NCBI GenBank assembly: GCA_903821875.1
Contig: CAIJMU010000052.1
Span: forward strand, 1 to 38,838
From: an uncultured Spirochaetota bacterium
Lineage (GTDB): Bacteria > Spirochaetota > Spirochaetia > Treponematales > Rectinemataceae
Direction of reading: 5' to 3'
Length of the DNA stretch: 38,838 nt
This document shows positions 4,067 to 37,577 of this stretch, one piece after another. A model generated the notes under the pieces. It had not been told where the DNA came from and searched no databases. It saw only the letters and a program-made list of their open reading frames with translations. The first letter of the stretch is position 1; every line of letters starts with the position of its first letter. A program made the position numbers and the translations under genes.

Positions 4067-5689
4067 GTGATTGCGCTGGCCCTTACACCTGTCTTTTCGA
4101 GCGCCCGCAATGGACAGCCGACCTGCAGCTATGCTGGCAGGAACCTGCACTCGACCTGGGATCCCGAGCAGGAAGCGCGGCGTTTCATCGATGGGCAGGG
4201 CGAGTTCCGCCTCCCGGAATTGCCTGGCTCGCGGCCAGTAACGACTATTCTCATCCTGGGCGCGTGCATGGGCTACCTTGCCTCAGAGCTCAGGAAGCGG
4301 CACCCTGGAGCCGCTATCCTGTCCCTGCAGTTCAGCCCTGCCTTTCGCGGCCGGGAGCTTCCTGGTGCGACCGCATCCTGGTTCCCTGACTCCTGTATAT
4401 CCCTGGATGGATTCCTGACTTCCTACCTCGATGACGATGGGGTGGGCTCGCCGAGGCTCATAGCCTGGCCTCCTGCCGAGGAAGCCTTCTCCGTGCAAGC
4501 CCGTGCAGCGAGGGAAAGCTTCCGAAATGTGCTCGATCGGATCGCGTCGAGCGCGGCTACCATCCGCGTGAACGGAAAACGCTGGATCCGGAATGCCTGC
4601 CGATCCTTTCTTTCCCTCGAATCCACGGTGAGTGCGGGAAGGACCCGGGCACCGGTGCTTGTCCTGGCCGCAGGGCCGAGCCTTGCCGAGGCGGCCACCG
4701 CACTAGCAGCCAAGGCCGAGCGATTCCTCATCATAGCTGTCTCCTCCGCACTCAGCGCCCTCCTCGCACGGGGCATCGAGCCGGATATCGTCATTTCGAC
4801 AGACCCTGGGTTCTGGAGCCAGGCCCATCTTTCCGGCTTGGGAGGACGCGACATAGTGCGAGCCTCGCCCTTTTCAGCCTGCCCGGTAGGGGCCCTGTCC
4901 CGGAGGATCCTCATACTCGACCAGGGTTGGTTTCCGGAGCATGGCCTGTCGGCCCTTATTCCCGGATCCGTTCCGATTCACGGACACGGCACAGTGGCAG
5001 GAAGTGCCTTGTCGCTCGCGGCAAGCCTTTCCGAAGGACCGATCGTCGTTGCGGGCTTTGACTTCGCTTCGAACAGGGGCCTCGACCATGCCCCTCCCCA
5101 CGCCTTCGATGACTTCGTTACCTCTGGCTCCCGGCGCATCCTGCCGATCGAGACAAAGCGCTGGGACCGACTGCTCTCAGGTCAGCCCCTGTCCCTCGGA
5201 GAGGGCGGATGGAGGACCAGCCGATCGCTGAAAGTGTACGCCGCTTCGCTGGCTCCAGAGTGGCTGCATGGCAAGGCGCGGGGGTCTGGCCCGGGGCATT
5301 CGGGCTTCTTCCGCCTCTGTCCCTCGCCGATGGAACTTCCGGGTTTCGACGTCCTCGAGACCGGAGACCTTGACAGGATAGCTGCCAAGGAGAGGTATAA
5401 GCAGCATTTCCAGGAGCAGAGTCGACCTCCCCTCGAAGAAAGGAGGCGCCTTCTGGCCGAGGCTGTCGCCTCATGGCGCGCTGCCCTTCCAGCTGCGCTC
5501 AAGAACCTCCGGGCGGGGACCCCTCCCGATCCAGATATGGCAGACCTCCTCCGCTCGGTGGACCTACCCTGGTACGCGGCTGTCCGCAGGGCCGTCGTCC
5601 TGGGCAAGGATCCCGGAGAGGCCCTGCAGCTCCTTGAATCCGAGGCCGGGTCCTTCGTGAAGGATATCGAAGAAAGGTACGTACTATGA
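4067..5689 (+). CDS. Maf/MptE-like (DUF115) protein, paralog 1
   Basis: A 540-residue protein of the MptE-like superfamily. It includes archaeal 6-hydroxymethyl-dihydropterin pyrophosphokinase and the bacterial Maf motility-associated proteins that attach nonulosonic acids to flagellin. An N-terminal domain carries LHSTWDPEQEARR, a motif shared with both paralogs in this window. A Rossmann-like segment follows (TTILILGACMGYLASEL). The DUF115 core begins at LAAGPSLAEA and contains GIEPDIVISTDPG and VAGFDFA. The start is GTG 4067, four bases after the upstream stop; no Shine-Dalgarno is visible, so coupling is likely. Compared with the paralogs it lacks roughly 30 N-terminal residues. It overlaps the next gene by ATGA. 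A flagellin glycosyltransferase-type role is inferred; pyrophosphokinase activity is the alternative. Confidence 0.8.
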   Translation: MIALALTPVFSSARNGQPTCSYAGRNLHSTWDPEQEARRFIDGQGEFRLPELPGSRPVTTILILGACMGYLASELRKRHPGAAILSLQFSPAFRGRELPGATASWFPDSCISLDGFLTSYLDDDGVGSPRLIAWPPAEEAFSVQARAARESFRNVLDRIASSAATIRVNGKRWIRNACRSFLSLESTVSAGRTRAPVLVLAAGPSLAEAATALAAKAERFLIIAVSSALSALLARGIEPDIVISTDPGFWSQAHLSGLGGRDIVRASPFSACPVGALSRRILILDQGWFPEHGLSALIPGSVPIHGHGTVAGSALSLAASLSEGPIVVAGFDFASNRGLDHAPPHAFDDFVTSGSRRILPIETKRWDRLLSGQPLSLGEGGWRTSRSLKVYAASLAPEWLHGKARGSGPGHSGFFRLCPSPMELPGFDVLETGDLDRIAAKERYKQHFQEQSRPPLEERRRLLAEAVASWRAALPAALKNLRAGTPPDPDMADLLRSVDLPWYAAVRRAVVLGKDPGEALQLLESEAGSFVKDIEERYVL

Positions 5690-7383
5690 ACGAACATGTC
5701 TTCAACAGGAACCTCCTGGCCCTGTCCGCGAAAAATGAGCGTTTGGGCTCGATACTCTCTTCCGCACGCCCCGACCCCTGCCTGAGCTTCGAGACCTCCA
5801 GAACGGGCCTTCCGGTGCCGCTCTACGAGTCGAAGGGGAGGCGCATCGCCCTCCATTCCCTCATCGATCCGGAGCGCGAGGGAGAGCGGCTCGCCACGGC
5901 CCAGCCGCCTGAGGGTTTTGTCGTCGCCCTCGGACTCGGCGGAGCCTACCAGCTCAGGCCTTATCTCCTGAGTCCCGCGACCAGCGGCGTCCTTCTCATC
6001 GAGTATTCGGCGCCCCTGCTCCGCGCCATCCTTGAAAACCTCGATCTTTCCGAGCTCTTCGTCGATCCGCGCGTCTCCATCCTCCTCGATCCGAAACCTG
6101 CGGACATAGCCCTGGCCCTTCTCTCAGCCTACATCCCACCGCTTGCCGGGGACCTCAGGACCCTGCCCCTGGTACCGCGCACCAAGCTCGAGCCGGAGGC
6201 CTTCGCACTGGCATCGGATGCTGTCCGGGCAGTCCTCGAAAGGATCTCGGACGATTACAGTGTGCAGGCCTTTTTCGGCCGCATATGGTTCCGCAATGCG
6301 ATCCGCAACCTTTTCCTCGCCGAGAGACCGACCATCCCGATGAAGCCGGCACGGCGGGCGGTGATCACTGCCGCCGGCCCCTCACTCGAGGCAGGCATCG
6401 ACGAGCTCCTCGCCGAGCGCAGGCGGGGAGCCATGGTCATCGCCACGGATACAAGCCTCCCTGCCCTCCTCGACCGCGGCATCAGGCCAGATGCCGTGGT
6501 GTCCATCGACTGCCAGGCGATCAGCTACTACCATTTCATGAAAGGCATACCAGAAGGGATACCGCTGATCCTCGATCTCGCCTCACCGAACCGCCTCGCG
6601 CGCCTCAGTCCCTCGGTCCGCTTCTTTTCCTCGGGACATCCCCTCTGTGGCTTCATATCCTCCCGCTGGCGGCGCTTTCCGGCCCTCGACACTTCAGGAG
6701 GCAATGTATCGCACGCAGCCATATCGTTGGCCGAGGCCCTCGGCGCGGACAGGGCCCTGCTTATAGGCGCGGATTTCTCCTATCCAGACGGCAAGAGCTA
6801 TGCACGGGGAACGTATATCTATGACTACTTCGGGAAGGCCCAGGAGCGGCTCGATCCCCTGGAGTCGCGCTTCTCAGGCTTTGTGTTCAGGACACCGTCG
6901 GTGCTGCGCGAGGAGGAGACGGGGCCGGATGGCCGGAAATGGTACCGTTACGTAACCAAGCCCCTCATGGCCTACCGCGAGCACCTCGAGCGTTTCGCCG
7001 CCGACTCCACCATCGTGGTCAGCGCATTCAGGGGACGCGGGGTGGAAATCAGGATCCCGCCACGCGAGGTCGGTCGCCGCGAATCGCGGCCCATCTTCGC
7101 GGCAGGGGCAGCCAACGAACCTGCGGCAGCCTTCCTGGAACGATATGCGAAACTCCTTCGCGCCTTGCCGACGGCCACTGAGCCGGCTTCGCGCCATCTG
7201 AGTTCCCTTGACCACGAGGGCAGGGACCTCTGGACAACCCTGCTTCCCTCCGCAGCTGCCTTCCAGCGGCTTGCCCGCCAGAACGGTGAGGGGTCCCCCC
7301 GGAGGGTACCGAGTGCCGAACTCCTCGAAAACACCCGTGCCTGGGCCCTCGCGGAAATCGCCCTCGCCCTCGACGCGCGTTAG
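5686..7383 (+). CDS. Maf/MptE-like (DUF115) protein, paralog 2
   Basis: A 565-residue member of the same family. The start ATG 5686 overlaps the preceding stop (ATGA), showing translational coupling. The N-terminal domain has LHSLIDPEREGERL. The DUF115 core has TAAGPSLEAGIDELL, GIRPDAVVSIDCQ and a nucleotide-binding-like stretch ending ALLIGADFSYPDGKSYARG. The last 100 residues are helical and probably a separate C-terminal region. The core is closely comparable to paralogs 1 and 3, yet the three are clearly diverged, so these are not recent copies. In bacteria such proteins modify flagellin with sugar acids, and spirochaete flagellins are reported to be glycosylated. No flagellin gene lies in this window, so the substrate remains inferred. 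Confidence 0.82.
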   Translation: MNEHVFNRNLLALSAKNERLGSILSSARPDPCLSFETSRTGLPVPLYESKGRRIALHSLIDPEREGERLATAQPPEGFVVALGLGGAYQLRPYLLSPATSGVLLIEYSAPLLRAILENLDLSELFVDPRVSILLDPKPADIALALLSAYIPPLAGDLRTLPLVPRTKLEPEAFALASDAVRAVLERISDDYSVQAFFGRIWFRNAIRNLFLAERPTIPMKPARRAVITAAGPSLEAGIDELLAERRRGAMVIATDTSLPALLDRGIRPDAVVSIDCQAISYYHFMKGIPEGIPLILDLASPNRLARLSPSVRFFSSGHPLCGFISSRWRRFPALDTSGGNVSHAAISLAEALGADRALLIGADFSYPDGKSYARGTYIYDYFGKAQERLDPLESRFSGFVFRTPSVLREEETGPDGRKWYRYVTKPLMAYREHLERFAADSTIVVSAFRGRGVEIRIPPREVGRRESRPIFAAGAANEPAAAFLERYAKLLRALPTATEPASRHLSSLDHEGRDLWTTLLPSAAAFQRLARQNGEGSPRRVPSAELLENTRAWALAEIALALDAR

Positions 7384-9076: not shown

Positions 9077-9843
9077 CGAAGGGACATGAGGCTCTTGGTT
9101 ATCAGGCTGGCGATCTTGAAGCGGCGATCATGGGAAAGTCCCGAATCGACCTCGAGGAAGCTCTCCCAGCGGCCCTGGAAATCGTCAGGGAGCTTAGGGA
9201 GGGATTTCAGCCTGACGTCGATGGCGCGTGGGCCCGGATCGAAGGTACGATTTGCCGCCAGGAGGGCCAGGGCTACATTGCGGGTAAAGGATGTGGCGGA
9301 TTCGAGGAAGAAAAAAGCGTCGGATTTCCTGGTGGCGGCGCCGAGGTCCGCTACGCAGTGCTCCATCCTCGCCTCGTGAAGCGAACGGAGTTCCTTCCAG
9401 AGACGATCGGGGAAGTCGGCGAGACGGTCGCTTACTCCCGCAAGCCAGCCCGAGCGGTCGAAGAGGTGGCGCCCGCCGGCAATTCGATGGAATTGGTAGG
9501 TTCCCAGGGCGAGCACGAGGCGGTCGCCGCCGTGCCCGAAATCACAGGAAGCGTCGATTTCCGCCACGGACTTGTACTCGATATGAACGGGGAGGTCGTC
9601 CAGGAGAAAGCGGTCCTTGGCCTTCACGCGTCCTGTCTCAAAGGCCCCCGCAGCGGGAAAGGCAGCGCCGCGCTCCTCCTCGCCGGGAAGGCGACCTGAG
9701 TGAAAGACGTCGAAGGCGAGCACGAAATAGGGATCGAGGGTATCTACCTCGGCGAGGCCAGAGAGGGACACCGCCTCGACGCCAGCCCAGGAGGAGCAGA
9801 CCTCGGCGATCGAATGGACGACCGGCTCCACTTTTTGCTTCAC
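9073..9843 (-). CDS. conserved hypothetical, nucleotidyltransferase-like
   Basis: A 256-residue soluble protein. The frame is open to 9933, but a strong AGGAG sits seven bases before GTG 9843, which fixes the start there (VKQKVEPVVH). The sequence VSLSGLAEVDTLDPYFVLAF followed by DVF resembles the G-S...D-x-D region of nucleotidyltransferase-fold proteins. Later segments (KDRFLLDDLPVHIEYK, ALGTYQFHRI, NRTFDPG) look like a conserved family rather than a chance frame. The classical GSxxxG-DxD signature is not fully present, so catalysis is uncertain. It is translationally coupled to the HExxH lipoprotein (ATGA overlap). It may act on a small molecule or RNA, but the substrate cannot be inferred. 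Confidence 0.65.
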   Translation of the reverse strand: MKQKVEPVVHSIAEVCSSWAGVEAVSLSGLAEVDTLDPYFVLAFDVFHSGRLPGEEERGAAFPAAGAFETGRVKAKDRFLLDDLPVHIEYKSVAEIDASCDFGHGGDRLVLALGTYQFHRIAGGRHLFDRSGWLAGVSDRLADFPDRLWKELRSLHEARMEHCVADLGAATRKSDAFFFLESATSFTRNVALALLAANRTFDPGPRAIDVRLKSLPKLPDDFQGRWESFLEVDSGLSHDRRFKIASLITKSLMSLR

Positions 9844-9914
9844 CTCGACACTCCTTGGATTCCCGTCTCGCGCCGAGCCTTGCCCAGCGCCAGCACTGAT
9901 TGTAGCATGACCTC

Positions 9915-10481
9915 GTGGCATTGAAAACTTCAAGAACCCTCGCGCTGGCTATCAGTCCCCCAGGCCCCCAGGAACGCGAAGCGAACCTCCTGGCTTCCCG
10001 GCTCTTCGCGTTGACGGGCGAGCCGACCACCCTTGCCCTTCCCGGCCTCATCGTCCTGGCGGCGGGACAGGCTGCGGGAAAAACCCTGGATTCCTCGATA
10101 CTGCAAGGCTTGTGGGAGGGAATCGAAGGTGGCTTTTCCTCGGCAGGCCTCGCCGTTGGAAGTGATGGCTGCCTGGTACTCGAGGTGGAGGGCCCGCTCC
10201 CCGAACTCAGGGAGCGCGCCAGGGGTTTTCTTCCATCCCCCCTGGATTTCGCCCCAGCCCGGGCGGGGGCTTTTTTCCTGGGAATCCATGGAAGTTCGAG
10301 GGAAGCCCTTCGAGGACAGATCGCCCGAGTCGCCATTCCGCGCTTCTCCTGGTACGCTGCCCGCCTGCTGCTGCTGGAACTGGATGGCGACCTCAGTGGC
10401 CTCCGGATGCTCTCCTATACCGAACTGGGGCAGAGCCACAGGAAAAGGAAAAAGCGTTCCGGAATCCATCCGCCAGAGTAA
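9915..10481 (+). CDS. hypothetical protein
   Basis: A 188-residue soluble protein, divergent from the gene at 9843. The likely start is GTG 9915, with TTG 9921 as an alternative; neither has a clear ribosome binding site. The pattern of strands (LALAISPPG, TTLALPGLIVLAAG, AFFLGIH, FSWYAARLLLLELDGD) is faintly like the 2H phosphoesterase (LigT/ThpR) fold, which ends in a similar F-x-A-x-x-L-x-L stretch. The two diagnostic HxT/S motifs are absent, however, so this would at best be an inactive relative. The tail is basic (SHRKRKKRSG). Function unknown. Confidence 0.5.
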   Translation: MALKTSRTLALAISPPGPQEREANLLASRLFALTGEPTTLALPGLIVLAAGQAAGKTLDSSILQGLWEGIEGGFSSAGLAVGSDGCLVLEVEGPLPELRERARGFLPSPLDFAPARAGAFFLGIHGSSREALRGQIARVAIPRFSWYAARLLLLELDGDLSGLRMLSYTELGQSHRKRKKRSGIHPPE

Positions 10482-26358: not shown

Positions 26359-27558
26359 TCAGTCATCGCAGGCCGCCTTGGGCCGGAGGGTCGAGAAGCG
26401 GCGTAATCTCTTGATGATTGGGGGCAGTTTTTCAAGGACATAGTCCACCTCGGCTTCGGTGCTGCTCCGGCCCAGGGAAAAGCGGATGGAACCGTGGGCA
26501 AGCTCCGGACCGACGCCGGTGGCCATCAGGACATGGGAGGGCTCGAGGCTTCCGGAGGCGCAGGCTGAACCGGTGGAGGCCTCGATGCCTTCAAGGTCGA
26601 GGGAAAGGAGGATGGCCTCGCCCTCGGCGCCGGGAAAGGAAACATTGAGGGTATTGGGAAGGTGATGCGTCACGTGGCCGTTGACATGGATGTCCGGAAC
26701 GGCTGCCACAATACCCTCGCGCAATCGTTCCCGAAGTCCCTCGAGGCGTGTCGAGTTGTCCTCGAGCTCCAGGAGGGCCAGTTCTGCAGCCTTGCCGAAG
26801 CCCATGATGCCCTGGTTGTTGTAGGTACCCGCGCGGATCCCCTTTTCCTGGTGGCCGCCGTGGATGAGGGCTTCTACAGGCGCTCCCTTGGCTACATAGA
26901 GCGCGCCTATGCCCTTCGGCCCATAGATCTTGTGGCAGGACATCGTCAGGTAGTCCACACCGAGGGCGACGACATCGACGGGGATCTTGCCGACAGCCTG
27001 CGTGGCGTCCGTATGCACGCGGGCTCCGACAGCCTTGGCAAGCCTTGCAACGCCTGCGATGTCCTCTATCGTGCCAATCTCGTTGTTGGCCATCATCACG
27101 GAGACAAGGAAGACTTCCCGTCCCCTCCGGCCGGGATCAAGGGCATCAGCGAGCGCAGACATGTCGAGCCGACCCATGGGATCGACGCCGAGGAACTCGA
27201 CCTCGAAGCCCTCATCCTGCAGTCGTTTTGCTGACTCAATGACACAGGGATGCTCGATCGCCGTCGTGAGAATGCGTTTTCTTCCAGAGCGGGGGCCGTA
27301 CACGCGGGCTGTTTCGAAGACTGTGTTGTTGGATTCCGACCCCCCCGAGGTGAAGTAGATCGACAGAGGATCGGAGGCTCCGACCAAGCGAGAGACCTGG
27401 ATCCTCGCCACCTCGACGCGGTCGCGGGCCCGCCTGCCGGCCTCGTGCATGCTCGAGGCGTTGGCGAAGACTTCGAGGTCCTCCACCATGGCTCGCATCA
27501 CCTCGGGATGGAGGGGTGTGGTAGCGTTGTAGTCCATGTAGATGAAGGGCCTGTCCAT
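26359..27558 (-). CDS. nifS: cysteine desulfurase (NifS/IscS family)
   Basis: A 399-residue PLP enzyme that removes sulfur from cysteine and passes it to NifU as persulfide. GAGGAG six bases before ATG 27558 fixes the start (MDRPFIYMDYNATTPL). The PLP lysine is K210 in SCHKIYGPKG, and the catalytic cysteine is C333 in GSACASGSLEPSHVL. Other family signatures are TSGGSESNN and ANNEIGTIEDI. It starts 10 bases after the iscR stop and is followed by nifU, forming a classical Fe-S operon. Confidence 0.95.
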   Translation of the reverse strand: MDRPFIYMDYNATTPLHPEVMRAMVEDLEVFANASSMHEAGRRARDRVEVARIQVSRLVGASDPLSIYFTSGGSESNNTVFETARVYGPRSGRKRILTTAIEHPCVIESAKRLQDEGFEVEFLGVDPMGRLDMSALADALDPGRRGREVFLVSVMMANNEIGTIEDIAGVARLAKAVGARVHTDATQAVGKIPVDVVALGVDYLTMSCHKIYGPKGIGALYVAKGAPVEALIHGGHQEKGIRAGTYNNQGIMGFGKAAELALLELEDNSTRLEGLRERLREGIVAAVPDIHVNGHVTHHLPNTLNVSFPGAEGEAILLSLDLEGIEASTGSACASGSLEPSHVLMATGVGPELAHGSIRFSLGRSSTEAEVDYVLEKLPPIIKRLRRFSTLRPKAACDD

Positions 27559-27568
27559 GCTGTTCTCC

Positions 27569-28015
27569 TCACGCGCGGCCATCATCCGCCTCACCTTCCA
27601 AGACATCTTTCAGGCTCCTCGACGAGAGGTAGCCATCCACCGATTCCTTGAGGCCGAGCCAGAACAGCCTCGGCAGACAGCTGCCCCCCTGGGCGCAGAC
27701 TTCTCTGCTGTCAATGCAGTCCACTGGCTTGATCTCCCCCTCGAGGGCCTCGACGATTTCGAGCATCGAGACCTCCCGAGGCGGCCGGGCCAGTCGGTAC
27801 CCCCCGTGCTTGCCGCGCTCCGATACAAGGAGTCCCGCGGTCGTGAGGAGGGAAAGTATCCCCTCGAGGTATTTCGGGGATATCGATTCAGATCGGGCAA
27901 TGGCTGCTGCCGTAGCAGCAGGATTGCCCTGGACATGACCCACAACCTCGCCGGCGCGGGCAAGGTGGACAAGGGCGCGGATCCCGTACTGGGTCTTCGT
28001 TGATACGTTGAACAT
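27569..28015 (-). CDS. iscR: Rrf2-family Fe-S regulator, IscR-like
   Basis: A 148-residue winged-helix repressor. The N-terminus (MFNVSTKTQYGIRALVHLA) and the segment KYLEGILSLLTTAGLLVSER followed by GKHGGYRLARP are typical of Rrf2/IscR. Three cysteines in DCIDSREVCAQGGSC (spacing C-x6-C-x5-C) fit a cluster-binding region. By family, the [2Fe-2S] form senses cluster demand and represses its own operon. The upstream sequence supports this, with a promoter and palindrome. The gene leads nifS and nifU. ATG 28015 has only a weak ribosome binding site. Confidence 0.92.
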   Translation of the reverse strand: MFNVSTKTQYGIRALVHLARAGEVVGHVQGNPAATAAAIARSESISPKYLEGILSLLTTAGLLVSERGKHGGYRLARPPREVSMLEIVEALEGEIKPVDCIDSREVCAQGGSCLPRLFWLGLKESVDGYLSSRSLKDVLEGEADDGRA

Positions 28016-28023
28016 CTTAGTCT

Positions 28024-28054
28024 GGTATTCCTATGGGAGTGCTAGGAATATACC
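28024..28054 (-). promoter_or_regulatory. palindromic operator in front of iscR
   Basis: ATTCCTA (28027-28033) and TAGGAAT (28043-28049) form a perfect inverted repeat around nine bases, and GGT/ACC flanks extend it. It overlaps the -10 element and the presumed transcription start, an ideal position for autorepression by the adjacent Rrf2-type protein. Confidence 0.6.
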
Positions 28055-28076
28055 GACGAGGCAGGATTGCGGTCAA
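28047..28076 (-). promoter_or_regulatory. sigma-70 promoter for iscR-nifS-nifU
   Basis: On the minus strand, TTGACC (28076-28071) is followed after 18 bases by TATATT (28052-28047). The distance to the iscR start is about 32 bases. Confidence 0.6.
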
Positions 28077-28142
28077 GACCTGTTTGGATGGAAGCGCTTT
28101 TTGGATGTTCCGGAGTTGTTGCTGGCAGGGCGACGCATCACT

Positions 28143-29651
28143 TCAATCGATGCTGGCCTGCTCCGCGGTCACGATGATCTCGAACATGGCACCCGAGCTC
28201 TTTGCCTCAAGGAGGCGGTCCACGACATATTCGCTGCCCTCGAGCAGTTCAGCGACTCGGGACAGGAGCTTGAGGTGGACCCGGGGCTGGGCAGCAGGGG
28301 TGATAAGGACAAAGAGCAGCCGGGCCCTTTCGGTGGAGTTCTCAACGGGCACCCCTGTCTCGCTCCTGATGACCAGGAGGCTCGGCAGGGATACCGATCC
28401 GAGCTTGGCGTGGGGGATTGCTATGCCCTTGCCCATGTAGGTCGCGGCGAGACGCTCTCGCTCCGCCACAGCCCGGAGGATCTCCTCGGAAGGCGCGGGA
28501 AGTTCACCAGGCATGACGCGGGAGAGGGCGATGCGCACCGCGCCGACGATCGAATGTCCCTCGATGCCGGTTACAACGCGGCCCGGGGAGAGGGTTTCAG
28601 CGAGGGTCATCGGAGGGTCCTCTTCGAACTCGTCGCCGATGGTACCCACGATCTCCTCGAGGATGTCCTCGATCGTGAGGAAGCCCGTCCAACGGCCCTC
28701 CCGGACCATGACCGCCATCTGGACACGACGGGACTGCATCATGGCGAGGAGCTGTTCGAGGAGGATATCCTCCTCGACGAAGATGGGCTGGCGTGTGATG
28801 CGATCGAGCGATGGCACATCCTCGGCGCCCTCCTCTGCCCTGAGGTCCTTGACGTGGACATAGCCGAGGGGAAGCTCCACCGCGTCGCCCACGACCAGGA
28901 AGCGGGAGAAGCGGCGGCGGCGTACCAAGGCGATGATGTCGTCGGCCGGCATCGAGGGAGAGAGGCTTACAGCCTCCTCCTTCGCGCGCATGGCGTCGCG
29001 CGCGCGCATCTCCCCGAGGTCGAAGATGTTCTCCATGAACAGGAGTCGCCTGAAGCTCATGAGGCCCGAGCCCTGGCCGCGCTCAAGGAGGATGCGTAGC
29101 TCGCCCTCGGAAATGTCCTCCCTTTCGCGGAGGTCGCCGAGGCCGATGAGCCGGAGGATCGCGTGGGCAGAGGCGTTCAACACCCACAGCGGAGCCCAGA
29201 AAAGACCGTGGAAGAACGTGAGCGCCCGGGCTGTTGCGAGGGCTGAACGCTGCTCGTCGCGGATGGCTGCAAGCTTGGGTACCTGTTCGCCGAGGAGGAT
29301 ATGGACAAAACTAACGAAGATGACGGATATCGCTGTGGCAACCACGTGGACGGCGAGGGAGCCCCCGTCGGCAGCCCCATGAGCGAAAAAAGGCCTGACG
29401 ATCCCGGCGGCCACCACCTCCCCGACGAAGCCCAGGGCCACGGAAGCGAAGGTGATGCCGACCTGGCAGACCGAGAGGTACTCGTCGAGCTTCGCGTGTA
29501 TGCGCTGGAGAAGGGCCGCATTGCGAAGGCCCTTTTCCAGCATCTCCTCAATCTGGGAACCGCGTATGCGTACGCTCGCGAACTCCGCATACACGAAGAA
29601 GGCGTTGAGCGCCACAAGGAGTACAAAGGAGGCGGCGAGGAGGAGACCCAT
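28143..29651 (-). CDS. CNNM/CBS membrane protein fused to a PTS EIIA (PtsN-like) domain
   Basis: A 502-residue membrane protein. Residues 1 to about 170 form a DUF21/CNNM membrane domain (LLLAASFVLLVALNAFFVYA, a segment around YLSVCQVGITFASVALGFVG, then HILLGEQVPKLAAI). A CBS pair (about 205-335) follows, ending in VREGRWTGFLTIEDILEEIV. Ordinary members (CorC/HlyC, magnesium/cobalt efflux) then carry a CorC_HlyC domain. Here the remaining residues (about 360-495) look like a type-2 EIIA domain, with GKGIAIPHAKLG and the phosphorylatable His at 414. EIIA (PtsN) is known to regulate ion transport, so the fusion could tie cation transport to PTS phosphorylation. That link is inference. It precedes iscR and follows the alpha/beta hydrolase gene by 12 bases. 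Confidence 0.85.
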   Translation of the reverse strand: MGLLLAASFVLLVALNAFFVYAEFASVRIRGSQIEEMLEKGLRNAALLQRIHAKLDEYLSVCQVGITFASVALGFVGEVVAAGIVRPFFAHGAADGGSLAVHVVATAISVIFVSFVHILLGEQVPKLAAIRDEQRSALATARALTFFHGLFWAPLWVLNASAHAILRLIGLGDLREREDISEGELRILLERGQGSGLMSFRRLLFMENIFDLGEMRARDAMRAKEEAVSLSPSMPADDIIALVRRRRFSRFLVVGDAVELPLGYVHVKDLRAEEGAEDVPSLDRITRQPIFVEEDILLEQLLAMMQSRRVQMAVMVREGRWTGFLTIEDILEEIVGTIGDEFEEDPPMTLAETLSPGRVVTGIEGHSIVGAVRIALSRVMPGELPAPSEEILRAVAERERLAATYMGKGIAIPHAKLGSVSLPSLLVIRSETGVPVENSTERARLLFVLITPAAQPRVHLKLLSRVAELLEGSEYVVDRLLEAKSSGAMFEIIVTAEQASID

Positions 29652-29663
29652 TCGCTGTGACAG

Positions 29664-30491
29664 CTACTTCCGCGCAGCCATCCAGGCGAGTACCGAGGCG
29701 AAAAGGGCTTCTTTTTCAGGTTCGTTGTGGAGCTCGTGGTAGCCGCCCTCGTAGCTCCGATACTCGACGTTCGAGCCGGCGGCCTTCGCGAAGCGGTCTG
29801 TGGCCTCGGGTGAAACCAGGCGGTCTGCGCTCCCCTGAAGGAGGAGGAGAGGAAGCGTGATCTCCTTCGCGCGCTCGATCAGGCGAGGCCCCGCCTCGAT
29901 GAGGTCAAGGCCAAGCCGCGCGGACACACGGTCGTGGACGAGGGGGTCGGCCTGGTAGAGGCGGACAACTTCTGGATCTCGGGAAAGGCCGGCGAGTTCG
30001 AGATCATTGGGGAGCGTGAAGGAGGGCGCGATCCCTGCCATCAGTTTCGCAAGAAGGAGCTTGAGGGCAGGAAGGGGCTTGGCTGTAGCAAGCCCGGGAC
30101 TTGTCACGATCGCACCCTTAATCGGAGGCTTCCGTACCACTAGGTAGTTGAGGGCAAGGCTTCCCCCGAGGCTGTGCCCATACAGGAAGACCGGAAGCCC
30201 GGGAAAGCGTGCCTTCGCTTCGTCGAGAAGGTGGTCGATCTGTTCAGTCACCACGGCATAGGAACTGTGTCCGCGTGGTCCGCCGCTCCTCCCGTGGCCA
30301 GGAAGATCGAAGGCGACAACCCCGACCCCGGCCGCTCCGAAGGCCCGAGCCATATGGTCATATCTCTGGCAGTGTTCACCGAGTCCGTGCACCAGGGCCA
30401 CGACAGCCTTCGCGGCTCCGTCGGGCTTCCATTCCGAAGCCTGGATATCGAGGCCGTCCCCTGTACGCCATGCGAAATCTTTTCGTTCCAT
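29664..30491 (-). CDS. alpha/beta hydrolase, monoacylglycerol lipase/lysophospholipase-like
   Basis: A 275-residue serine hydrolase of the Hydrolase_4 type. It has the oxyanion region VALVHGLGEHCQRYDHMA, the nucleophile elbow YGHSLGGSLAL, an acid in LLLLQGSADRLVSP, and a catalytic His in YEGGYHELHNEPE. PGHGRSGGPRGH is typical of monoacylglycerol lipase-like enzymes. GGAGG ahead of ATG 30491 supports the start. No signal peptide is visible, so it is probably cytoplasmic. It is followed by the CNNM-EIIA gene in the same direction. Confidence 0.88.
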   Translation of the reverse strand: MERKDFAWRTGDGLDIQASEWKPDGAAKAVVALVHGLGEHCQRYDHMARAFGAAGVGVVAFDLPGHGRSGGPRGHSSYAVVTEQIDHLLDEAKARFPGLPVFLYGHSLGGSLALNYLVVRKPPIKGAIVTSPGLATAKPLPALKLLLAKLMAGIAPSFTLPNDLELAGLSRDPEVVRLYQADPLVHDRVSARLGLDLIEAGPRLIERAKEITLPLLLLQGSADRLVSPEATDRFAKAAGSNVEYRSYEGGYHELHNEPEKEALFASVLAWMAARK

Positions 30492-30677
30492 GTATTCCCT
30501 CCCTATGACCGAAGCATTCCACGGTCAACCCGGCATCGTGCATCCAGAAGCGGGAATGAAATTCATCCGCCGGCTTCGAGCACCATCATACTCCATGTGT
30601 TGCTACGGCGCCATTCATGGAACGAGGATGGGGTTTCGGGAAGAACAGTTCTGGTAGATCAGGAAACGGAAGGTCCC

Positions 30678-31514
30678 TCAGTCCACTGTCGCATAACCCT
30701 GGCTGGCCTCAGCTGCCACCTTGAGCTTTCTGAGCGCGCGTTTTTCAATCTGCCTGACGGTCTCAGGGGATATGCCCAGTTCGTCGCCAATATTCTTCAG
30801 GGTACGGCGATCACCCCCCGAGAGTTCAAAACGGTACATCAGGATCTTCCTCTCCTTCTCGAGAAGGATTTCGAGCATCCTGACAGTCTCTTCCCGTACA
30901 GAACTGCGCATGAGGGTCTCGTCAGGGCTGTAGGTATAGTCTGCAAAGACATCAATCACGCCCCCGGAATCTGAATCGAAGTCAGAATCGAGGGAAATGG
31001 GAGCAGAGGTCATCCCAAGGAGTTCGCTTACTGACTCTGCGGGAATGCGGAGGTCCGAGGCGATCTCGCTTGCCGTGGGCTCACGTTGCAGGGTCTGGGT
31101 CAGCCAGTTATAGCAGCGCTGAATCCGCCGGAGTAGCTCTTCCTTGCGATGAGGCAAGCGGATTGTCCTCCGGGAGTTTACCAAGGAACGGGTGATGGCT
31201 TGCTTGATCCACCAGGAGGCATAGGTCGAGAAACGTACGTTCCTCTCCCCGTCGAACTTTTCCGCTGCCCGGATGAGTCCGACATTTCCTTCCTGTATAA
31301 GGTCCATGAGGGGCATGTCCGGCGTCACGTAGGCCCTCGCTATCTTGATGACCAGGCGAAGGTTGGCCTCGATGAGCCTTCTCCGGGCAAAACCATCCCC
31401 TGAGGCGATCTGTCTGGAAAGCTTTTTTTCTTCTTCAGCCGAAAGGAGGGGAATCCTCTTGATACCTGCGTAGTAGGACTCAAGCATATTTTCACTTGCA
31501 TCATGCGTTGGCAT
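30678..31514 (-). CDS. sigma-70 family (group 2-type) RNA polymerase sigma factor
   Basis: A 278-residue sigma factor. AAGGAG six bases ahead of ATG 31514 fixes the start (MPTHDASENMLESYYAGI); an ATG five codons earlier has no such site. Region 1.2 is ENMLESYYAGIKRIPLLSAE. Region 2 has NLRLVIKIARAYV, LIQEGNVGLIRAAEKFD and VRFSTYASWWIKQAI. Region 3 follows with EPTASEIASDL. Region 4 has RTLKNIGDELGISPETVRQI and then EKRALRKLK. Region 1.1 is missing, so it is a non-essential group 2 sigma (RpoS-like) rather than the main RpoD. Targets are unknown. Confidence 0.92.
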   Translation of the reverse strand: MPTHDASENMLESYYAGIKRIPLLSAEEEKKLSRQIASGDGFARRRLIEANLRLVIKIARAYVTPDMPLMDLIQEGNVGLIRAAEKFDGERNVRFSTYASWWIKQAITRSLVNSRRTIRLPHRKEELLRRIQRCYNWLTQTLQREPTASEIASDLRIPAESVSELLGMTSAPISLDSDFDSDSGGVIDVFADYTYSPDETLMRSSVREETVRMLEILLEKERKILMYRFELSGGDRRTLKNIGDELGISPETVRQIEKRALRKLKVAAEASQGYATVD

Positions 31515-31572
31515 CTTATTCTCCTTCATGCTTAGGAAGGAGCAGCTATCATGCCAAGATTCTCAGGAAAGG

Positions 31573-31658
31573 ATTATATAACTTCAATGCGTTGCCCTAT
31601 CACAAGATAGCAAAACTTCCTGTGGGGTATTCCTTTGACTCCAGGAAGAATTGTATCA
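31573..31658 (-). promoter_or_regulatory. two candidate promoters and an inverted repeat upstream of the sigma-factor gene
   Basis: On the minus strand, TATAAT lies at 31578-31573, about 55 bases before the start, without a good -35. Further upstream, TGATACAAT (31658-31650) is an extended -10. Between them, CTATC-ACAA-GATAG (31597-31610) is an inverted repeat that covers the -35 position of the first promoter, a possible regulator site. The surrounding gap (31515-31743) is AT-rich and shows no other gene. Confidence 0.4.
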
Positions 31659-31743
31659 AATATAAGACTTTAGTCGGAAAACATGTATTATTTTCTGAAA
31701 GGCTTCAGCTCCATACCGGGCGAGAGAAGCTATGGCATGGCGT

Positions 31744-33907: not shown

Positions 33908-35775
33908 AATGGGACAACCGGACCATACGCTTCGCGCTGGCGATCGCGGCCATCTCCAGCTTCGCCATCGTTATCCTCTTCCGCTACGGCATCCTTGCGT
34001 CCCAGGTCGGAGGCACGGGTCCGCAGATCCCCGAGACGGGAGAGCGGGGAACCATCTCAGACCGCAATGGCCGGGTGCTGGCTATGGATTCCCCCCTGTA
34101 CAACATCGCCATCTGGAGACCTGAAACGGACCAGGAGGCCTTTCCCGTCGAGGTAAGACGCCTGGCCGAGCTCCTTGGAATGGAAAGCGAGGATATCCTT
34201 GCGCGCTGGAAGAACGGTAGCAGCAACTTTTTCTACCTCAAGAAGCGGGTGGTTCCCCAGCTCGCGCGGGCCATCCAGGGCGCCAAGGCCGACGGAGCCT
34301 TTTCCGGGGTAGTGGTGGAAAAGGTTGCCGGACGCTTCTACCCTGAAAAGCGCCTCGGCTCGCACCTCGTCGGCTTTGTCGGAGACGCCAACCGGGGACT
34401 GGCAGGCATTGAGCTCAAATACGATGGCGACCTCAGGCCGCCCAGAAGCCGTCCTGGAGACAAGGCAACCCTGGGCAATTCCATCATCCTCACCATCGAC
34501 GCCAACCTCCAGTTTGCCCTCGAGGAGGTGGCCCGGAAGGCCCAGGTCTCGACCAAGGCCCAGGCAGTCATCCTCCTGGCGGGCGATGCCCGGAATGGAG
34601 AGATCCTTGCCTACGTAGCCATCCCTGATTTCGACCCCAATGAGTACTTCAGTTTTCCCGATACAGCCTGGTACGACTGGGCGGCCGTTTCACACTATGA
34701 GCCCGGCTCGGTCTTCAAGGTCTTTTCCATGGCCTCGGCCCTCGACCTCGGGGCGATCGACCGGAATACCTCCTTCACCTGCGGCGGGGCCTATCGTCGG
34801 ACGACCCCCGGCGGCGAGACGATTACGATAAAGTGCCTCTCCGACCACGGAGTTGTGAACATGACGGGCATCCTCGAATATTCCTGCAATTCCGGCGCTG
34901 GACAGGCAGCAGACAGGGCCGCCTCGGTTGACTTCTACAACAAGCTCATCGATTTCGGTTTTGGAGAACGGAGCGGTGTCACCCTGCCCTCCGAGAGCCC
35001 GGGTAGTCTCCGTTCGCCGGAGGGCTGGTCCCTCCGGTCGAAGCCGACGATCGCGATGGGACAGGAGATCTTTGTCACTGCCACCCAGATGCTCGCTGCG
35101 GCTACAGCCATCGCTGACGGTGGACTCCTCTTGAAGCCGACTGTCGTCCGAAGTGTCATCAAGCCTGACGGAGCGACTGCCTGGGAGTTCCAACCGACTG
35201 TGGTCAGGAGAACGATCTCCAAGGAAACCTCGAAAACGATACTGGCTGCGATGGAAGCAGGGTCTGGCATCAAGGGCACAGGATACCGGGCCAAGGTCGA
35301 TGACATCAGGATGGCAGTCAAGACCGGAACAGCCCAGATGATCGACCAAACCAGCAGGCGCTATTCAGACACCGACTTCATCGCAAGTACCCTCGCGATC
35401 TTCCCGGTCGAGGACCCTCGTATTGTCTTGTATGGTGCCATCGTCAAGCCGGAGGGGGAAACCTTTGGCGGCCGCATAGCCGCGCCGATGATCCGCGAGG
35501 CTGCAGAGGCCATTCTTGAGCAGGAGGACATCCTCCGGGGGAACAGTCAGGTCATCACGCATTCAGGCACCATCAACCTTCCTCGACTTTCCTCTGTCGC
35601 CATTGGTTCGACGATGCCCGATTTGATTGGCACACCGAAGAAACTCCTCCTGGGCCTCCTTTTACGGGATGACCTCAGGGTAAGGATCGAGGGTGATGGT
35701 TACGTAGTTCGCCAGACTCCGGAACCTGGGAGCCCGGTCGAATCTGGAATGGAAATCATGCTGGAGCTGAAATGA
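33904..35775 (+). CDS. ftsI: FtsI-type penicillin-binding transpeptidase with C-terminal PASTA domain
   Basis: A 623-residue class B PBP that cross-links septal or lateral peptidoglycan. It has an N-terminal TM helix (about 10-27) and a dimerisation domain with RGTISDRNGRVLA. The transpeptidase domain has S269-xx-K272 (EPGSVFKVF), S327-C-N329 and K473-T-G475 (VKTGTAQ). A PASTA-like tail (about 575-623: MPDLIGTPKKLL, EPGSPVESG) suggests muropeptide sensing. ATG 33904 overlaps the lepB stop, and its stop overlaps the third Maf-like start. The choice between FtsI and a paralogous elongation PBP cannot be made from sequence alone. Confidence 0.9.
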   Translation: MKWDNRTIRFALAIAAISSFAIVILFRYGILASQVGGTGPQIPETGERGTISDRNGRVLAMDSPLYNIAIWRPETDQEAFPVEVRRLAELLGMESEDILARWKNGSSNFFYLKKRVVPQLARAIQGAKADGAFSGVVVEKVAGRFYPEKRLGSHLVGFVGDANRGLAGIELKYDGDLRPPRSRPGDKATLGNSIILTIDANLQFALEEVARKAQVSTKAQAVILLAGDARNGEILAYVAIPDFDPNEYFSFPDTAWYDWAAVSHYEPGSVFKVFSMASALDLGAIDRNTSFTCGGAYRRTTPGGETITIKCLSDHGVVNMTGILEYSCNSGAGQAADRAASVDFYNKLIDFGFGERSGVTLPSESPGSLRSPEGWSLRSKPTIAMGQEIFVTATQMLAAATAIADGGLLLKPTVVRSVIKPDGATAWEFQPTVVRRTISKETSKTILAAMEAGSGIKGTGYRAKVDDIRMAVKTGTAQMIDQTSRRYSDTDFIASTLAIFPVEDPRIVLYGAIVKPEGETFGGRIAAPMIREAAEAILEQEDILRGNSQVITHSGTINLPRLSSVAIGSTMPDLIGTPKKLLLGLLLRDDLRVRIEGDGYVVRQTPEPGSPVESGMEIMLELK

Positions 35776-37577
35776 GCGGGGATGGGTCTGGAGGCTGGCT
35801 CGCACGCAACCTCATGGAGCTTTCCCAGGTCCAGCCCGCCCTTGCCTCCTTTCTTGCGACCACGGAGCCTGAAGCCTGGCTATGCTCAGCGGCTGCTTCA
35901 GGGGACCTGACGGCGCGGCACGAAGGCAAGCTTCTCCATTCCGCCCGCGATCCACGGAACGAGGCCGCGCGCCTTGTCGCCGCTGCGCTTCCGGGCGGGG
36001 CAGACACGGCGGTCATCCTCGGTGCGGGCCTGGGCTACGCCATCGAAGCAGCCTTCGAGCTGCCCGGCATTGAGCGGGTGATCCTCTGCGAAGCCCTCCC
36101 CCAGCGGATAGTCGCAACCCTCGACGCCCGCGACCTTTCGTCCATCCTGTCGCGCGAAAGCCTGTCCTATGTCGCCGGCGGCGATCCGGGCGCCATCCTG
36201 GCCGCACTCGAGGACACGGGAGCGCGGATCGCCGGTCTGGTAGGGCAGCGCGCCCTCGAGACAGGCGCCGAACCCTGGTACGCCGCAGTCCGCGCTGCCT
36301 TCGAGCGTTTCGCGGCAAAAGAGAGCATCAACGAAAATACCGTCAAGCGCTTCGGCCGCCTCTGGGTGCGGAACATCGCCCGGAACTCGGTGGCAGCAGC
36401 CGCCTTCCACGGCATCCAGGGCCTCGCAAGCCGCTTCGCGGGCTTCCCAGCCCTTGTACTTGCCGCAGGTCCAAGCCTCGACGAGGTCCTCAGCCATATC
36501 CAGGACCTCAGGCAGCGCTGCCTCATCGTGGCAGTCGACACCTCCCTGCGCAGCCTTCTCGCCCGCGGCGTGGAACCGGATTTTGTGCTCGTAGTCGATC
36601 CCCAGTACTGGAACTGGCGACACGTGGCCGACCTCGAATGGAGGACTTCCTACCTCGTCACGGAGCCAGCTGTCTGGCCCCCTGCGCTCCGATGCAGATT
36701 CAAGAGCGCCTTTGTGGCAGCCTCTGTCTTTCCACTGGGAAGGGCCCTTTTCCCCGGCGACCGGGGGGCCCTCGGAGCCGGGGGATCGGTGGCTACAAGC
36801 GCCTGGGACTTTGCCCGACACATTGGCGCAGGGACGATCTACATGGCTGGCCTCGATCTCGGCTACCCGGTGGGTCATACCCATGCCCGGGCGAGCCTCT
36901 TCGAGCAGCGGGCTATCGCCGCTGGGTCCCGCCTCCATCCCTCATCGACGACGCAGGCTGCCGCAGTCTTTGCCATCCCGACGCAGGCAGCGAAGGCCAA
37001 TGACGGAGGCAGCATCCTCACCGATGCACGGATGACCCTCTACGCCTGGTGGTTCGAAGCTCGCCTTGCCAGACGCGAAAGCCCGCCAACCCGCACGCTC
37101 TCGCAAAGGGGATTGGCCATTCCCGGCATGGCACTTTCCGGAATCGAGGCCCTGCTTGAGCTTCCACCCAGAAGAAACGAGCTGGATGCCATCCTCCACG
37201 AAATCGGAGTGAGCGCAGCTTCAACTCCCCAGGGCCTGGCTTCAGCCCTCCCGGAGCTCATCTCCTCGCTCTCCGAAATCGAACAGAGGGCGCGCAAGGG
37301 AGCAGAGGCAGCCGAAGCCTGGCTTTCCCGGGGTTCCAGCGCCAGAGGGGGGCCAGGATTGCTGGCCATCCTCGATGAGGTCGATGCCTTTCTCCGCGAC
37401 TCGGCCGCCCGCGATGTGGTGGGATTTCTCCTGCCCTCGCTCCGAAGCCTGTTTTCGAGGGCTCCTACAAGCTTCGAGGAAAGCGTAGCCAATTCAGCCT
37501 CACTGTACCACCACATCGTAGACTCGGCGCACGAGCACCTCGAGTTGTTCAGTCCCGAAACAGCCCTGGAGGGCTGA
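35772..37577 (+). CDS. Maf/MptE-like (DUF115) protein, paralog 3
   Basis: A 601-residue member of the same family as the genes at 4067 and 5686, encoded 28 kb away. It has the N-terminal motif LHSARDPRNEAARL, a Rossmann-like strand (TAVILGAGLGYAIEAA), a DUF115 core beginning LAAGPSLDEVL, then GVEPDFVLVVDPQYWNW and MAGLDLGYPVGHTHARAS. A helical C-terminal region follows. The start ATG 35772 overlaps the ftsI stop (ATGA), so it is translated with lepB and ftsI. This unusual linkage to wall enzymes is noted in the findings. It could modify flagellin or another exported protein; the substrate is unknown. Confidence 0.82.
   Translation: MSGDGSGGWLARNLMELSQVQPALASFLATTEPEAWLCSAAASGDLTARHEGKLLHSARDPRNEAARLVAAALPGGADTAVILGAGLGYAIEAAFELPGIERVILCEALPQRIVATLDARDLSSILSRESLSYVAGGDPGAILAALEDTGARIAGLVGQRALETGAEPWYAAVRAAFERFAAKESINENTVKRFGRLWVRNIARNSVAAAAFHGIQGLASRFAGFPALVLAAGPSLDEVLSHIQDLRQRCLIVAVDTSLRSLLARGVEPDFVLVVDPQYWNWRHVADLEWRTSYLVTEPAVWPPALRCRFKSAFVAASVFPLGRALFPGDRGALGAGGSVATSAWDFARHIGAGTIYMAGLDLGYPVGHTHARASLFEQRAIAAGSRLHPSSTTQAAAVFAIPTQAAKANDGGSILTDARMTLYAWWFEARLARRESPPTRTLSQRGLAIPGMALSGIEALLELPPRRNELDAILHEIGVSAASTPQGLASALPELISSLSEIEQRARKGAEAAEAWLSRGSSARGGPGLLAILDEVDAFLRDSAARDVVGFLLPSLRSLFSRAPTSFEESVANSASLYHHIVDSAHEHLELFSPETALEG

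Follow-up and report, generated by a model that had tools for sequence, protein, structure and literature searches.

MtCorB, a transporter of the CNNM/CorB type, carries a C-terminal CorC domain that contacts the second CBS domain (CBS2), as exchange data suggest, and the loss of Mg-ATP from its CBS pair has been proposed to inactivate the transmembrane domain; in the same study the CorC domain is described as having no role in Mg-ATP binding (PMC8242095), and thus a domain occupying that slot need not act through ATP. The function of CorC_HlyC in bacterial cation exporters is described as unknown in a 2025 paper (PMC12421838). A second kind of control over cation transport comes from the phosphotransferase system (PTS): in Escherichia coli, unphosphorylated PtsN binds and inhibits the K+/H+ antiporter YcgO, and phosphorylation weakens the contact; the site of PtsN on YcgO is the C-terminal region, probably a CorC domain, although the authors call the CorC assignment putative (PMC11808508). 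A 2026 review describes the purpose of regulatory-PTS control over potassium homeostasis as unclear (PMC13104625). LacS is named in a 2023 review as the one bacterial case of a transporter whose own phosphorylation regulates it; this phosphorylation takes place on a fused EIIA-Glc-like domain and is carried out by HPr (PMC10710835).

We analysed a stretch of 38,838 nucleotides from an uncultured Spirochaetota bacterium (hereafter the window), in which an initial annotation made from the letters alone had proposed a CNNM/CBS membrane protein ending in a PTS EIIA domain with an intact phosphorylation motif around H414. That reading is borne out by Pfam, by alignment with PtsN and by fold comparison. 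On the basis of sequence features and of the analogy with the systems above, we consider it probable that the protein is a CNNM/CorB-type cation exporter gated via EI/HPr phosphorylation of H414, and possibly also by ATP at its CBS pair.

Domain architecture and genomic context of the CNNM-CBS-EIIA protein

The frame holds up as coding and lies on the minus strand, which the initial annotation had left unstated (Table 1): stops interrupt the plus strand over the same positions, and the minus-strand frame is open. Pfam assigns to its product a CNNM domain (PF01595; e-value 4.4e-38, 131.2 bits vs a cut-off of 28.4), CBS in two stretches, of which the best spans residues 285-335 (3.8e-12, 46.8 bits vs a cut-off of 24), and PTS_EIIA_2 (PF00359; 1.6e-19, 70.8 bits vs a cut-off of 27), the last being the profile assignment by which the annotation had proposed to check itself. 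CorC_HlyC gave no Pfam match in this protein up to E=1. The EIIA domain begins about ten residues past CBS2, and H414 sits within the motif GKGIAIPHAK.

Table 1. Features of the CNNM-CBS-EIIA locus, in positions of the window
Feature	Position	Strand	Basis or remark
CNNM-CBS-EIIA gene, 502 aa	28143..29651	minus	ATG at 29651, stop at 28143-28145
CNNM (DUF21) transmembrane domain, residues 9-198	29058..29627	minus	Pfam and fold match to 7cfg
CBS pair, about residues 214-338	28638..29012	minus	Pfam, PDB sequence search, fold, alignment
PTS EIIA (EIIA-Ntr-like) domain, residues 348-500	28152..28610	minus	PF00359 at 367-493; 1a6j fold match
H414 codon, predicted phosphorylation site	28410..28412	minus	Alignment with residue 73 of 1a6j
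Alpha/beta hydrolase (Hydrolase_4) gene	29664..30491	minus	12 bases upstream of the fusion gene, same strand

A sequence search of the PDB recovered MtCorB over residues 8-335 and E. coli PtsN over residues 376-497; when the C-terminal tail was searched alone it recovered E. coli PtsN (1a6j) with an e-value of 3.4e-13, placing H414 opposite residue 73, which we take to be the phosphorylation site of PtsN. An AlphaFold model built from six sequences (mean pLDDT 74, pTM 0.38) was compared with known structures as separate stretches, the arrangement of the domains, including the placement of EIIA against the CBS pair, being unreliable at this pTM. The EIIA part matched PtsN structures 3urr (Z 18.4, 2.7 A over 151 residues) and, for residues 348-499, 1a6j (Z 18.1, 2.5 A over 148 residues); the CNNM part matched the CorC transmembrane domain 7cfg (Z 17.7, 2.3 A over 156 residues), and the CBS part the CorC-type CBS pair 3lv9 (Z 17.2). 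The NCBIfam equivalog model for PtsN, TIGR01419, scored 56.6 bits, under its cut-off of 138.7; by these comparisons the domain appears PtsN-like and is not filed as PtsN.

The hydrolase gene is possibly co-transcribed with the fusion gene, and this pairing was seen only in the window and its closest relative, L010, among 26 regions compared (the window, five named loci and 20 fetched stretches). In 20 of these the fusion was picked up by a crude gene caller, which gave overlapping frames instead in L087, L090, L093, L097, L101 and L102. The 26 regions contained no widely recurring neighbour, one cluster being present at four loci (PurL-like by Pfam for L086) and the hydrolase at two, and no conserved neighbour that names a cargo. 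Rfam gave no match at gathering score in the window, and a promoter and terminator scan of 27400-31700 performed no better than on shuffles. Elsewhere in the window three large plus-strand ORFs (4067-5689, 5686-7383 and 35772-37577) look like related proteins and bear a resemblance to motility-associated glycosyltransferases.

Distribution and origin of the fusion

The same domain order recurs in other taxa, where the initial annotation had advised looking for it. Sampling beyond three phyla consisted of a pattern scan of named genomes, which gave five relatives whose best segment is 47-65% identical; two are Planctomycetota, two carry the labels Myxococcota and Proteobacteria, and the fifth is a further bacterium. 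Profile searches found the fusion in each of the three phyla sampled, with Planctomycetota yielding it most often; scoring was confined to a few top candidates in every genome, and the fusion counts that follow are therefore lower bounds. Of 392 genomes from the window's phylum, 39 matched the fusion profile at E<=1e-60; four of the matches, the window's included, extend through the EIIA part, and the remaining 35 stop at profile positions 338-357, where the CBS pair ends. The same search listed three more genomes from the family of the window, which had no match. A separate draw from the phylum of L010 gave matches in 4 of 391 genomes at 1e-105, all of them full length: the genome of L010 itself and three with the contig numbers, and nearly the same coordinates, of the window-phylum fusions, the window's own genome being absent among the matches of this draw. 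Because of these shared contigs L010 is taken to belong to the window's phylum, giving at least five fusion genomes there.

Among Planctomycetota, the phylum of L011, 49 of 392 genomes matched at 1e-95, with a full-length fusion in at least 37; two more fusions are cut by contig ends, one after the active site and one before it, and ten of the matching genomes have CNNM-CBS only. Two genomes of this phylum, G570 and G666, carry three full-length CNNM-EIIA copies each, and a further partial match adjoins one of those copies, L060. In the phylum of L013, 18 of 377 genomes matched at 1e-95 and two of the matches are full length; one locus, L106, matches up to profile position 423 yet carries CorC_HlyC. 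The draw made for L012 comprises the same genomes plus L012's own, and 3 of 377 matched at 1e-105, two of them being fusions; the L012 and L013 draws together thus contain at least three fusion genomes.

A maximum-likelihood tree built on the CNNM-CBS part, with 80 rows, places the 38 fusions in one clade with support of 100/99, and the split between fused and non-fused proteins is present in all 200 bootstrap trees; the fusion is therefore of single origin in the sampled tree. The 42 non-fused rows, apart from the paralogue of the window's own genome and two E. coli proteins, were chosen for resembling the fusion profile, and the tree may therefore lack a non-fused sister that is closer. The window protein pairs with L010 and then with L016 in a six-member set (97/91) that also includes L011 and two further fusions from the phylum of L011, and the two remaining fusions of the window's phylum, L017 and L018, branch in other parts of the clade, L018 next to one from the phylum of L011. 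This scattering of window-phylum proteins among those of another phylum suggests more than one transfer of the fusion between phyla. An assembly chimera or a chance frame is ruled out by the same domain order in 38 sequences of one clade, and the protein is confirmed as a real, conserved variant within the CNNM/CorB family.

The second CNNM protein of the window's genome is a standard CNNM-CBS-CorC_HlyC, and CorC_HlyC fills the slot that EIIA occupies in all ten non-fused relatives scanned out of the 42 non-fused rows; by eye the tails of 40 of the 42 look alike, with those ten and the own-genome paralogue among them. These comparisons uphold the description of the EIIA domain as standing in place of CorC_HlyC, and support the view, drawn from sequence, that an EIIA-Ntr-like domain has replaced the C-terminal CorC_HlyC of a CNNM/CorB-type transporter.

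Conserved sites and the phosphorelay

MtCorB coordinates Mg2+ through S21, S25, S71 and E111 and through the carbonyls of S21 and G110 (PMC8242095). By alignment, S21, S25 and S71 correspond to N16, V20 and I66 of the window protein, E111 to E122 and G110 to G121. N16 and E122 are invariant in the 37 aligned fusions, V20 and I66 are each kept in 36 and G121 in 35; the same N, V and I appear in L019, a non-fused CNNM-CorC_HlyC relative in the same alignment. The top NCBIfam model for the window protein is that of the polyamine exporter PaeA (NF052568; 113.2 bits vs a cut-off of 500), and PaeA also ranks first, far under the cut-off, in three further fusions. Of the cargo proposed in the initial annotation, cation transport thus stands as a family expectation, more precisely a predicted cation export, whereas magnesium or cobalt is less sure, with the serine ligands replaced and PaeA the best model, and Mg2+ is not certain as cargo. 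We hold it possible, if tentatively, that the gating is real and the cargo not Mg2+ but a polyamine, as for PaeA, or Na+ or another cation, a reading that overlaps with the preferred one. The PaeA ranking in four fusions and the residues that stand where MtCorB has serines speak for it, whereas the low scores, the identity of only 20.6% to E. coli PaeA over the CNNM-CBS part, and the retention of the Mg2+-site positions E122 and G121 speak against it.

In the CBS pair, R250 and D329 are kept in all 37 fusions. They correspond to R235 of MtCorB, a phosphate contact, and to D316, a ribose contact, the latter under a numbering offset assumed for the loop deleted from the MtCorB crystal construct. 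Other ATP contacts are less constant among the fusions: Thr207 maps to R222, which is not kept, Phe233 to position 248, which is variable, and Thr313 to T326 (T in 26, S in nine, A in two).

Position 414 is histidine in 36 of the 37 aligned fusions. Within EIIA only P413 (37) is more conserved; F447 and E399 equal it (36 each) and R398 follows at 34, against a median pairwise identity of 36% for the domain. The EIIA domain is under constraint: its dN/dS ratio was 0.063, 0.201 and 0.117 in three of four pairs tried, within the range of the other domains, dS being saturated in the fourth. The sole exception at position 414, L073 (in G429), has Arg for His and is possibly an unphosphorylatable form. 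HPr was found in all eight other fusion genomes tested, out of some 46 found. That EIIA might be a purely structural substitute for CorC_HlyC, serving packing or dimerisation with phosphorylation no longer relevant, would fit its position in the CorC_HlyC slot and the lost histidine of L073; we regard it as unlikely in view of the near-invariance of H414 in so divergent a domain and of the recurrence of HPr.

In the window's own genome (4.68 Mb in 193 contigs, 97% complete) EI, HPr and HPr kinase are each matched once, so that the relay proteins for which the initial annotation had advised a search are both there; EI and HPr kinase were sought in this genome only. The active-site motifs of EI and HPr were recognised by eye against the consensus. 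The HPr kinase gene adjoins that of HPr; rpoN flanks the pair at one end, a histidine kinase and a sigma-54 activator at the other (L119, contig C59), and this row resembles a regulatory PTS locus. PTS_EIIC (PF02378), the one EIIC family covered, had no match in the genome; on this ground a role for the protein as part of a PF02378-type sugar-uptake PTS is rejected and, within that scope, the phosphorelay looks regulatory rather than devoted to sugar uptake. PF00359 occurs over its cut-off in four places, namely the window gene and three HTH-EIIA proteins (L002 and L003 by Pfam, L001 as read from its sequence), and below it in one. The latter is an 839-aa Na+/H+ exchanger (L118:513-3032, contig C25) with a weak C-terminal EIIA-like match of 23.7 and 19.8 bits against the cut-off of 27; no EIIA match was listed at E<=0.001 for its whole ORF, and it may be another ion transporter whose EIIA tail has degenerated. 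In another fusion genome (L084 in G163) the CNNM-EIIA gene has two more EIIA proteins at a distance of no more than about 3 kb (1857-2711 and 9484-10155), of which the first bears a C4 zinc ribbon and the second HTH_17.

The three HTH-EIIA proteins beside a single HPr match would suit a signal running in reverse, in which the CNNM/CBS part acts as the sensor of ions or ATP and EIIA draws or sequesters HPr phosphate, thereby informing the DNA-binding HTH-EIIA proteins, but no neighbour or domain suggests such an output and in MtCorB the CBS pair has been proposed to govern transport (PMC8242095), which makes the idea improbable. Our preferred reading, which we infer, is that phosphorylation controls ion transport directly.

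A proposed two-input exporter and its relation to known systems

Under phosphocontrol of transport, the predicted phosphorylation, ATP binding, gating with its direction, and cargo would combine as follows. The transporter would most likely export Mg2+ or another small cation; phosphate would pass from PEP through EI and HPr to His414 of EIIA, whose phosphorylation state would alter the hold of the CBS pair on the transmembrane domain, such that transport would respond to two signals, ATP through the CBS pair and the PEP/HPr state through EIIA. Because unphosphorylated PtsN inhibits YcgO, the unphosphorylated EIIA is proposed by analogy as the restraining form; as CorC is absent from the CNNM-EIIA protein, the analogy would extend to the control logic and not to the same contact. 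We give even chances to the broader proposal that the fusions constitute a multi-phylum class of cation exporters switched by reversible PTS histidine phosphorylation, with a two-input gate reading ATP at CBS and PEP at EIIA.

If the proposal is true, this would be, to our knowledge, the first ion transporter that the PTS controls through its phosphorylation, doing for ions what LacS does for sugar. It would also link the export of cations to the state of carbon and energy supply, and this in an organism whose genome gave no PTS_EIIC match. The K+ pump KdpFABC, with its serine phosphorylation, is a non-PTS example of direct phosphocontrol. That EIIA has naturally taken the place of CorC_HlyC suggests a regulatory slot, one readable by phosphotransfer, and the protein offers a one-polypeptide system where mutation of one histidine could address the questions of both CorC_HlyC function and PTS control over cations. 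No description of a CNNM-EIIA protein was found in the literature, searched by title and abstract opening; the bare domain order is probably visible in Pfam/InterPro architecture lists.

Among the known systems comparable to the window protein are the SLC4 anion exchangers (BTR1, 7x1i), of which a stretch matches the fold of the window EIIA domain (Z 15.1, 12% identity); unlike the window protein they are eukaryotic, and we know of no phosphohistidine function in them. The domains of LacS-type proteins (GPH sugar transporter and EIIA-Glc) were not found in the window protein, to which Pfam gives CNNM and PF00359, and the EIIA-Glc-like domain of LacS has a different EIIA fold. LacS shares with it the principle of a transporter with a fused EIIA domain, phosphorylated by HPr in LacS, but is a sugar transporter with a domain of the EIIA-Glc-like type (PMC10710835). 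The YcgO system is a close precedent in trans, of the kind to which the initial annotation had referred with PtsN acting on potassium systems: in both cases EIIA-Ntr is brought together with a cation transporter, in YcgO at the putative C-terminal CorC region, but PtsN is a separate protein acting in trans on a CPA1 antiporter, whereas here the domain is covalently part of a CNNM protein, in its CorC slot (PMC11808508). The CNNM/CorB-CorC transporters themselves (MtCorB, TpCorC, MpfA and PaeA) are also close. The MtCorB and TpCorC structures show a CNNM transmembrane domain and a CBS pair of the same fold and in the same order as in the window protein, which differs from MtCorB in the replacement of all three serine Mg2+ ligands and from these transporters in having EIIA in place of CorC_HlyC.
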